A DNA stretch of 64,000 bases from Lineus longissimus (taxonomy: Eukaryota > Nemertea > Pilidiophora > Heteronemertea > Lineidae). Position 1 is the first letter of the stretch. The number at the start of each line of letters is the position of its first letter. Positions 21,748-27,700 of this stretch are shown piece after piece. The position numbers and the translations under genes are program-made. Location: the NCBI RefSeq assembly GCF_910592395.1, contig NC_088315.1, forward strand, positions 3,412,501 through 3,476,500. The letters run 5' to 3'. The notes beneath the pieces are model-generated. The model saw only the letters and a list, made by a program, of their open reading frames with translations, was not told the DNA's origin and did not search any database.

Positions 21748-24700
21748 TCAGAGAATCAAGCATCTTGGTTTCTTCCCCTTGCCCTTTTCTTTAACCTTTT
21801 TCTCTTTCTGAAAAATATGGAAGATATAATAGTAATAACTTCTGGTAGTAGCCAAGTGACTCTGCCTCTGATGAAGGAGGTGTCCGATACAAGCTACAGT
21901 CCTTGTGGATGGGGGTCTTCCGCCTTTTTCAGGTCTCATTCCAAGGATTACGTAAAAAATGCAATGAAGGGACTTGCCGCAGATCACAAGCATGAGCCAG
22001 TCTTGGAATTGAACCCACGATGTTCAGACCATTGATGAGAGGCCAGTCCATCACAGGTTAACTTAGCCACTGATCTCCCTAGTACTTACATATTTTCTAA
22101 TTTCCCTGACCAAGGTATAGAACGCATCATCGACACCGAGTCGAGTTTTTGCAGACGTTTCCACATATGGAATACTGTATCTGTCGGCCATTTGATTACC
22201 ATTTTTTGTGTCTACTGTCCTTGTTGGAAGATCAACTTTATTTCCTACCACTGAAATGACATCATGCATAAAATTACAAAATGGGGGACACGAAATTTCT
22301 CCAATCAGCTGTCCTTTATAGTGGCGTTTTTTACCAAAACTAACTTATTTTCAGAACTTAGGTTTTAGAATAGCAACAAAATCAAATCTCGAATACATAT
22401 CTTTGACTTAACAGACGTTTCCAAATATTTAAGGCTATTTCAGGCAACTTAAAACACTCATTCATTCTGTGGGAACCCAAATCACCACTCACAGCCATGA
22501 AAATTGGATAGGGTACATCATGATGCACCGCACTGTACAGTGCTGCTCTCTATTGAGAGAATATCCAGTAATGTTTGCCTTATTGAAAATGCTCACTGTG
22601 TATGTTCGTGTTATCACGTTGACATGTACAGAGGCAATTTTTTTTCTATTTACTTGTGGCACAGACAAGAATGATGCAAGCAAAAATGTGCCGTGACGAT
22701 ATTTGGTGTTTCGGTACTTCGGTACTTACAAACCATGGGCACCTCATCTGCATCTTTTACTCGCTTTATTTGTTCCCTGTATTGGTTTATATCTTCAAAC
22801 GATTTGTTGTTGTTCACCGCGAACACGCAGAGAAAGCCTTCCCCGGTCCTCATGTACTGGTCTCGCATGGCACTGGAAGACAAAGCAATGAAATGTTCGA
22901 TCAGGTTGCGGTCAAAACATCTCGGGTTTCTCACAACATTGATGAGGCCACAGAGTCCTTCTATATTGATTTGATACCGGTAGTTACAATCTCGAATCAA
23001 GTCTGCTTTCTTTTTATACTTGAGAAATTCAACGTAGGGATATTTTGACGTAGGTGGAAGGCAGAGTTTATCAGTTCATAAATTTGTCGAAAGCCCTCCG
23101 CTCTTCAACCGACCATAGCAAATCTTCAAGATATCATCTTCCTTGCGACGAAAGCCACTCATAAATCTTGCGAGTAACGTCACTCATAGTTTGAGAGAAC
23201 CACTGAGAGTCAATTTGTCAGTTAGATCTGACAATGTTTGACGTGTGTGGTATCCTCAGCATAACATACTATCATGATGACTGTAATCATTATCTCCCAT
23301 AGTTGATAACAGAGAATTGCAAGCTCATATCTCTGCTTTCAATGAATTGCAGATTTGAGGTCTTGTTTAACATTATCTATGATGCTGATGGGCTCAAACT
23401 TAAGGATTTGAAAGTTTCTGCATTACTAGTGTCTCTAGTTCGGTGCTAGTGATGTATTGCTGGAATCAAAATTTGCTCAACATATTGAATTGGGTAACAT
23501 TGGACCAAAAATCATTATCCGAGATGTCAGAGGTTAATGTTGCATCCATGATGTCAGTCAACAAACGTAATTTTGGACTACTGTCTACACTGCCCCAACA
23601 GGAATCTAGAAGCTAGCCATTCTACCTGTATTCTTCTTGACCTGCCGTATCAAGGATGTCGAGAAGACATGTCTCTCCATCTATCACAACTTGCTTTCGG
23701 TAGGAATCCTCTAGCAACACAAATAGAAATATGTTATGAGATTTGAGATGCAATAAAATACCTGTATTCTTCTTGACCTGCTGTATCGAGAATGTCTAGA
23801 AGACATGTTTCTCCATCTATCACAACTTGCTTTCGGTAGGAATCCTCTGAAATCAGCAACACATGTAAATGAAAGCAGGACTGCACCAGGCACAGTAAGT
23901 CTGATACATCACTGAACCAAATACCACTGAGAGATGTGTGAAAGAACAGGGCTGACAGGATGCCCTACCAAGCATGGATACAGCAGCAAGTGGTTTTTGG
24001 CCATTTATGTGCCTTGTATTAGAGCTGTCTACACAACAAATCTACCTAATGCATTGTCAGCAACTGAAATGCTCTTGACCACATTATACCGCAACTGGTA
24101 TTGAACGCATGCAATTATACAGGCTTACACTGAATCAGGAAGAGAACATATTCAAGTGCTACAACAAGAGGCAATATTATTCAGAAAGCTATGATGTAAT
24201 GCAATACTTATCTTGGCAGTGCTTTACATTAATTCCTACTCATTCTGTCAACAAGCTGACGGTCACACTTGTCAAAACACTATTCATCAACTCACTTATT
24301 CTCTGCGCACACAAATCAATCAAGGAGATGGACTTCTCAGAAAATGCATTCGTGACCAACATTCTATCAATATTTTCTCTTTGCTGATTTGTGTAGACCT
24401 GTAATGGTGTGCAATCTATGGCCAATGTTGTATTGCTTTACCTTACGACCGAAAATTCTGCTTTTAGAAATCTTGAATGCTTTTGTGAGATTTATCATAA
24501 AAAGTCAGCTTGCATGGTTATTTCAGTCAAAGACAGCATTTAGAAAGGCTTTGGAATATGAAGAAACTTATGCCTTTCTTTCACTTCGAGAAACTTCGCA
24601 AAACAGGACTTACCTATTGTTGGATCATATTCTTCTACAAAACTGAAAACAGACAAGAAACACATTTTACTCTAAATATTTGAACTTCAAATTAGTCATG

Positions 24701-27700
24701 TTTAAACAAATTCCAGCAGGAATCCTGTTAACCCTGTGCAGTGAACAATTCAAAAGTGGGAAACTGGACATTTGTGGCACTAACTTCAGATCAAAGGCTT
24801 TAGAAATCCAAAATTCATTTCCTTCATACTCCACAGTCTTTTGATGAAAATGGACACTGAAAGCAGACCTTCTGAGATCCTCGAGAAATTGTTTCAAAAT
24901 TAACTGTTCCTGTCTCAAAAATAATTTCAGGCATGCAGCCTGTATCAAATGACTGAAACTACAGGTGACTTAACCAGCTCAAAATGCTCACCATCATTAG
25001 TTTACATTACAGTTAGGGATACATTCCCCTGGCATGACCAAGCATTTTAGTTCCAACAGTTTTTCCAAACTACTGAGAGACATTTTTAGAAATAGGAGGA
25101 CAAATTTTATGGCAGGTAAGGAGGCATGAATTGAAGTAATCTGCTTTTCATTTTAGGCGATTCGTAGAAAATACTTGATCCATCAAGCCTGGACCAGAGA
25201 GGGCATCCCATTCAGCCATAAGCTTGCGCAGGAGTCCATGCCAGCCAGGCCTCGGACGTTAGGATCGTAGCAGTGTGTTGCTGCTGTACTTACTGATTTT
25301 GAATGAGCTGTATCGTGAGGGCACTTTTGCCGACGCCACCAGCTGTAAGATAAAGAAGGAAAGACATGAATAAGACGCTACTTACTGGTTCTGTATTAAC
25401 TGTATCGTGAGGGCACTTTTGCCAACGCCACCAGCTACAAGAGAAAAAGTGAACAGTATGAGACCAGTGGTTGTCTTGCCTGGTGCAACAACGCATTTTG
25501 ACTCGACTAGTAGTCGCAATGCCAATGTATTGCGATTCATTGCAGTTTCTACAAGTTTTTTTATTTGCCATTTTTCAGGGTCAGACGATAAACCTTTTAA
25601 TGTGAAGGATAGTAAAATGGCTATAAATGCTGATGCCGAAATATCTACAAAACTTTCTACAAAGCTGACAACTACGGATCATGTACTGAAAATTATCCTC
25701 AAACTTGTTCACACTTATATTCGTATTCAGCAAAGTATCTCCTCCAAACTTCGTCACAAAATGTCAATATTATTGTTCAAAGTATTGATTGGCGATAGTC
25801 AGTTTAGTAAACCTATATAATCCATTGATAGATATATCAGTTTACTCACCATGATATAGATTAGAATATGCCAAGTACATAATATTTCTACTCGACAGAA
25901 ATTGTGCATGATCACCAAGCAGATGAGAGGGGGGAGGTCAAGTCAAGTTTGGCAAAAAGGCCAGGTAGGACTTGTGAGTGTGACCGGACCACAGGCTGGG
26001 CCAGGATTTTAAGAGGGAAAACCGTTTTTTCCAAATACATAAGGGCAAGTTATGGTTAATGCTGATGAAGTATACCAGCTCAGCTCGGGGTCAATTTAAA
26101 AGATTTTCTTCCAAAAGAGGTCATCATTCACAACCCTAACAACTCTAACTATGTCGCCCATGTAAACATTATGGGTCCGGTTTGACACCAGACATGAACG
26201 AACCACATCATGACATACATAGAATACCTCGGACAAATCCATTTACTTTAATAACCACAACCTCCTATTCAATTGTGACCAAATGCACCAGACAAAAACC
26301 GAGATTTCCCGAATCTTTTCCCTAACAATGATTTCCTGCTGTTGCCAAAGGGAACATGAAAGTTGATACAAAAATGATTGCACATTAAACTAGAGCTTCA
26401 CCCTAAATATAGATTTTTTGTTTATATCATCATACAATAATGATTTGATGATTGTCGAGATATCAGGCAATGGTTGTGTGGTCATAACCAAAATACCGGA
26501 TAAGATCACATAAGATGTGATGACTTGCTTGCATACATCTGTCATCGACCTGCTGATGTCATTGTCATACTCATACATCCAAGGTACCACACAGATTTCT
26601 ATTTTCACAAAGCTTTCACTTTGAGGGGAAACATTCTCCTCAGCCTAGCGTTTCTATGGTGACGAACGCATCACGTTGGAAACCTTCAAGAAGCTTCAAC
26701 AGCGTCTGCTTGCTGAGAGAGTTAATGCACGAGTTGCTTGGCATCAACATATGATGAAATTGGTGAAAACTGATGGAAAACCATGCTGAATCTAAACACG
26801 ATGATATCTGTCCAAACGTGCAGCAGAAACTGTCTGCCAAAATTAGGCATTGTCCAATGCCAGTTGCTTGGCTTTTGGACAAGGTATCTAAAGTAACTGT
26901 AGATTATTAATACAATGCTCAATTGGTGGAGCAGTATGAGATTTTGTTGGTGGTGTAGTTCAATCAACGATTACGGAAGTTCCCACCGCAGATAACTTCG
27001 CTCACAATAATTTGACCTCACTACTTTCAGTATAATATTGTTGGATTTCATGGATTTAGTGCTTCAACACATGCAGAAGAACATTTGAGAATGCCGCTGA
27101 CCGACGTCATGCGAGCTGAAAAAGATATCAAGAGTGAGATGAAATCAATTGTGGAGAGAGATTAAAATGAGGATGTGACTATGTGAGTCATCCACAAAAG
27201 GATACTGTTTATTTAACATCAGCGATACAGGACAGAATATGTCAGCCCTCCTCACTCTTTTATAACATGTAATCATATATTGCATTATGTCTTTTTTTGT
27301 AAGTGATACCGTAATTTCTTGTGCATAGAATACAGTGAACCACACTGAACTTCCAATTGAGAGGTGGTGGATTCAAATCCCTCCGAGTCTTGAGAACATA
27401 AACAGGCATAAATACGATACATGGCCGGCGACATGGAAGCGACACATCATCGATTCAGCCTGCCTCGATCATCAATCAGAATGATTGGATCCTCATTTTT
27501 TTAACGATTATGACTCATCAAAGTAATGTAGAGAAGGAACTGGTGATGGCAGATAAAAATCTCTGCAGATACAGCAGGGGTGGGTGGCGATGACGCCATG
27601 CATTGGCAAACTGGCTGATGCTCTGAGCTTCACCAGTATTTGTGAGTATATTTCCAGTGTAGCAACCTTGTGACAAGAAGCTGCATTACATTTCAATGTT

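Follow-up and report, generated by a model that had tools for sequence, protein, structure and literature searches.

A Ras gene of Lineus longissimus with two tandem exon pairs, each pair encoding a single peptide and proposed to act as mutually exclusive exons

Two coding exons of a Ras gene in the nemertean Lineus longissimus are present as tandem pairs whose copies differ in nucleotide sequence and encode the same peptide. With a probability of about one half, both pairs are read here as mutually exclusive exons that owe their retention to splicing, the splicing duty being divided between the copies; expression, exclusivity and the divided duty are what we infer from the DNA. The gene is complete and lies on the minus strand at 21748-32432 of a stretch of 64,000 nucleotides (assembly GCF_910592395.1, contig NC_088315.1, positions 3,412,501 to 3,476,500), called here the window, and it comprises seven coding segments, of which E2 and E4 occur in duplicate (Table 1). 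Ras is a growth-control switch, and a choice between such copies would alter its RNA and not the protein, unlike the known role of duplicated alternative exons.

Table 1. Coding segments of the Ras gene and the two spacers, in positions of the window
Feature	Description	Position	Strand	Length (nt)
Ras E1	First coding segment, residues 1-11 in part	32402..32432	-	31
Ras E2a	Upstream copy of P-loop exon, residues 11-27, G12/G13	25386..25434	-	49
E2 spacer	Between E2a and E2b, GT...AG	25343..25385	-	43
Ras E2b	Downstream copy of P-loop exon	25294..25342	-	49
Ras E3	Micro-exon, single copy, residues 27-37	24614..24642	-	29
Ras E4a	Upstream copy of exon for residues 37-65, Q61	23762..23846	-	85
E4 spacer	Between E4a and E4b, GT...AG	23711..23761	-	51
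Ras E4b	Downstream copy of exon for residues 37-65	23626..23710	-	85
Ras E5	Single copy	22730..22872	-	143
Ras E6	Single copy	22090..22250	-	161
Ras E7	Polybasic tail ending CLIL, stop included	21748..21807	-	60

Upon translation, all four combinations with a single copy of each exon give the same protein of 185 amino acids, which equals the L. longissimus record P0002, named 'GTPase HRas isoform X4' in one source. The features of a Ras GTPase are found in it, namely the Ras domain (PF00071, E 4.6e-59), the invariant P-loop and switch residues and a CAAX tail (CLIL), and its closest matches are human KRAS chains, the domain and the matches having been obtained with a query bearing V for L at residue 113. 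The introns follow coding positions 31, 80, 109, 194, 337 and 498, with phases 1, 2, 1, 2, 1 and 0 as given by the exon lengths, and one of the six sets apart the 29-nt micro-exon E3. None of these positions is shared with those that we take the introns of vertebrate RAS genes to occupy. The phases are also different from those of the three introns of vertebrate RAS genes, described as 0, 2 and 0 in a source that also gives the extra introns e-j as absent from protostomes (PMC9882654). Regarding further copies of Ras exons, none convincing was found when the whole window was searched by permissive tblastn with P0002 and by short blastn with five of the exons.

The first-pass annotation had proposed the tandem duplication of two Ras exons, and this was borne out, as the four copies could be located exactly. 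Every copy has an AG acceptor and a GT donor, and the members of a pair have the same length and the same phase, in agreement with the intact splice sites and equal phase previously claimed. The E2 copies differ at 6 of 49 positions and the E4 copies at 5 of 85, and all 11 differences are synonymous, so the encoded peptides are identical within each pair, as had been reported. Considering that a random substitution in E2 or E4 is synonymous with a probability of about 0.25, such an outcome would arise by chance with P of about 2.5e-7; as the repeats were also found independently (90 nt at 94% and 75 nt at 84%), the duplicated exons go beyond chance. The earlier description of the pairs as P-loop and switch II exons holds for the P-loop, whereas E4 is not an exon of switch II alone, as it begins in the last part of switch I and reaches into the first part of switch II. 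The placement of G12 and G13 in one duplicated exon (E2) and of Q61 in the other (E4) was correct.

The Ras pairs are two of the 12 families of direct repeats of at least 40 nt within 3 kb that occur in the window. Two direct-repeat pairs at 16418-17237 (87 nt and 74 nt, 91-93% identity) hold no clear gene and look non-coding, while at 53175-53831 there are diverged direct repeats, separated by about 80 nt, with partly open frames and likewise no clear gene. The repeat listing also gives tandem units of about 116 nt past the 3' end of the BBS2 gene (43326-43613), as well as TGACCTA-rich arrays together with three 145-nt tandem units at 61893-62979. The first part of a Forkhead gene (14228-14995) and that of a fatty acyl-CoA reductase-like gene (NAD_binding_4, 40375-40737), both by Pfam, lie on the minus strand, and a scan of the window at the Rfam gathering thresholds gave no match. 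The BBS2 gene itself, on the minus strand at 44155-48590, has 13 coding exons and 12 introns and corresponds exactly to the L. longissimus record P0121 of 715 amino acids; this 12-intron solution was chosen of two exact ones, the other adding a 37-nt and a 680-nt 'intron' within the last few residues. No duplicated exon was seen in BBS2 or needed for the exact match.

The spacers within the Ras pairs, of 43 nt (E2) and 51 nt (E4), are shorter than every other intron modelled, as the first-pass annotation had stated, but its smallest other intron of 118 nt has to be corrected to 111 nt, located in BBS2. The introns of that gene range from 111 to 266 nt, 12 of 12 being longer than either spacer, and the Ras coding segments are otherwise separated by six gaps, of 282, 479, 651, 753, 767 and 6967 nt. 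The claim that joint inclusion would break the frame was confirmed, as omitting or joining the two copies of a pair, tested in six combinations, always led to premature termination, at codon 13, 44, 49 or 85, and an early stop also follows the retention of either spacer. The four best branch-point-like motifs of each spacer put the predicted branch-point A at a distance of 8-40 nt to the 5' splice site. About 50 nt between the two are described as needed in human extracts (PMC6692369), and in humans the splicing of introns as short as 43 and 49 nt is reported (PMC4463651). Joint inclusion, formerly called sterically blocked, is thus likely to be hindered, but not with certainty: predicted branch points closer than about 50 nt favour exclusion of one exon, and the splicing of such short human introns keeps this from being a proof. 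Overall, the architecture of both pairs is supported as fit for mutually exclusive use.

Regarding the divergence between copies, pS and dS are 0.49 and 0.80 for E2 and 0.27 and 0.33 for E4, with a joint dS of 0.48, these being rough values from 31 synonymous sites, and the synonymous divergence of the two exons does not differ significantly (Fisher p 0.26). A copy under no constraint from the duplication onwards should have gathered about 26 amino-acid changes, but the pairs show none (P of about 7e-12). The 95% upper bound on dN/dS is about 0.06, and a copy could have been unconstrained for at most about 12% of the span since duplication (95% bound), both upholding the earlier statement that selection holds the two copies identical. 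This identity requires no special force, since the E2 and E4 peptides align with human KRAS without any amino-acid difference, and identical copies are then to be expected once both are used. The feature that calls for an explanation is the persistence of both copies.

It could be supposed that each pair contains one silent copy, the relic of a recent duplication that has not yet decayed, and this is improbable in view of the dS of both pairs, of the missing 26 changes and of the short time that any copy could have been free. The flanks of the copies no longer align either, as eight tests of similarity between the intron sequences beside them were not significant (p 0.067-0.80). An assembly artefact, with one real copy of each exon, deserves hardly any credence, the copies differing only at synonymous sites and their likeness stopping at the exon borders, with unrelated flanks. 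The L. longissimus assembly is described as built from 79-fold single-molecule long reads (PMC8593623), and long reads far exceed the repeated units of 136 and 92 nt. Codon tuning, by which synonymous codons would give a fast and a slow translation of the same protein, finds some support in rare-looking codons that one copy has and the other lacks (TTA and ATA in E2a, CTA in E4a), although the mean relative usage is close between copies (0.79 versus 0.88 in E2 and 0.87 versus 0.90 in E4, with BBS2 as the sole reference gene), and it is very improbable.

Gene conversion, which had been raised as a possible role, would mean that a single copy per pair is of importance and serves as the template by which its partner is overwritten, and it draws on the exons being more alike than their flanks. 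The in-register flank identity of E4 is 35% and 24%, compared to about 73% expected from its dS, while that of E2 is 45% and 35% compared to 51%, a small gap that demands no special explanation. The E4 values suggest a duplication older than its dS, with constraint on synonymous sites, conversion limited to the exon or indels that scrambled the flanks. A 9-nt string, TGTGTTGCT, is found upstream of both E4 copies, inside the best local alignment, which is itself not significant (p 0.10). Homology of 49 and 85 nt, which is all that is left, is very short for gene conversion, and some amino-acid changes arising between events would remain. In addition, the changes are not significantly clustered, as the longest unchanged run has p 0.31 and 0.12, and conversion is therefore disfavoured, its probability being low and only slightly above that of a relic. 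Among the alternatives, a control of Ras dosage has somewhat better prospects but is still unlikely. Here the copies would be interchangeable and compete, and the share of frameshifted mRNA lost by nonsense-mediated decay would set the amount of Ras, which is consistent with the early stops in all the tested none-or-both combinations and in both spacer retentions. However, one weak exon would achieve the same by skipping, and joint inclusion is unlikely given the tiny spacers.

The preferred reading, that the pairs are kept for splicing with a divided duty, starts from the tandem duplication of two exons of a single Ras gene, which would have given two mutually exclusive pairs with the same peptide within each. 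Each transcript would take one copy per pair, the taking of both being hindered by the tiny spacer, and both or none would lead to a frameshift and an early stop. Both copies would be used often enough for selection to purge every amino-acid change, while their splice signals may have weakened or diverged after the duplication, so that some tissues, or a share of the output, would depend on each copy; this would be a subfunctionalisation acting on exon splicing. Of the other roles raised in the first-pass annotation, RNA-level regulation and buffering against splice failure may still hold.

The splice sites were scored with a matrix built from 16 other sites of the locus, these 16 being scored by leave-one-out. 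The donor scores are 5.8 for E2a, 5.8 for E2b, 4.3 for E4a and 2.1 for E4b, compared to a median of 8.7, and the other donors scoring at or below them number 2, 2, 1 and 1 of 16, respectively; the corresponding counts for acceptors are 3, 8, 9 and 7 of 16. Hence, the donors of the four copies are weak and their acceptors ordinary, in a small sample where paired copies are related. Weak donors are as expected of a weakened, shared duty, while the acceptors, not weak as a group, count against it. In a limited search, RNA pairing of the docking or selector type between a spacer or cluster and the flanking introns was not significant in any of six duplex tests (p 0.083-0.667), nor was any of four local folds significantly stable (z -1.52 to 0.21).

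The labels in the sequence records bear on the same reading. P0002, a single member sequence, carries the label isoform X4 in one source, while a second source has it as isoform X1, as would be expected if different exon sets with the same protein had been annotated. Among the 10 listed rows with both numbers readable, the ncbi and uniref isoform numbers disagree only for P0002, and no other L. longissimus sequence occurs among the named rows of the best 120 of 495 matches, many rows being nameless and the query again having V at residue 113. Label differences also have other causes, however, since P0050 is labelled X2 (ncbi) and X1 (nr), and the P0002 labels hint weakly at an annotation of several Ras exon sets that yield one protein.

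A bolder reading, put forward tentatively, is that both pairs are kept for cell-specific Ras splicing or for robustness, perhaps with a coordinated choice, giving four mRNAs and one protein, and that mutually exclusive exons of this protein-silent kind form a class. Within it, the exons holding G12/G13 and Q61 would be the two most mutation-sensitive ones of Ras, a suggestion that is just as tentative. Duplicated exons of this type are described as a source of related but distinct proteins. If true, two pairs in one gene whose peptides have long stayed identical would show that mutually exclusive exons can persist for RNA-level reasons alone, and a splicing role would become separable from a protein role, as is seldom the case. 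Owing to the synonymous differences, RNA reads can be assigned to each copy.

In a limited literature search, mostly of titles and abstracts, no description was found of mutually exclusive pairs with identical peptides or of this gene, and identical peptides are not mentioned in the accessible text of PMC9013439 or PMC3236188. As for the class of tandem-duplicated mutually exclusive exons, the Ras copies are homologous neighbours that share their length and phase and have intact splice ends, and the use of none or both breaks the product; its usual trait of different peptides, which is not strictly defining, is absent, as all the differences are synonymous. The human tandem-duplicated set described in PMC9741552 similarly comprises homologous exons that lie side by side in the same phase and are used one per transcript, but its isoforms differ in a homologous region, whereas the Ras peptides are identical, twice in one gene. 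In OGDH (PMC7969005) and alpha-tropomyosin (named in PMC6692369), exclusivity is attributed to a short distance between the 5' splice site and the branch point, and the Ras spacer motifs likewise lie within less than about 50 nt, although here the branch points are predicted only and the entire spacer is 43 or 51 nt. The unusually stable pairing of Dscam-type docking and selector RNA was not found at the Ras exons in the limited search. The G-protein alpha genes (PMC5896119) are also GTPase switch genes in which single exons were duplicated locally and independently, but these duplicated exons, unlike the Ras pairs, encode different sequence at functional interfaces. Mutually exclusive exons are likewise known in a Ras gene, KRAS 4A/4B (PMC9882654), where they are last exons giving different tails, while here they belong to the catalytic core and leave the protein unchanged. 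Finally, exons Ab and 3 of U2AF1 (PMC5224494) are tandem and homologous and differ in their splicing control, which has been termed subfunctionalisation of duplicated exons; there, unlike in the Ras pairs, the protein is changed too.
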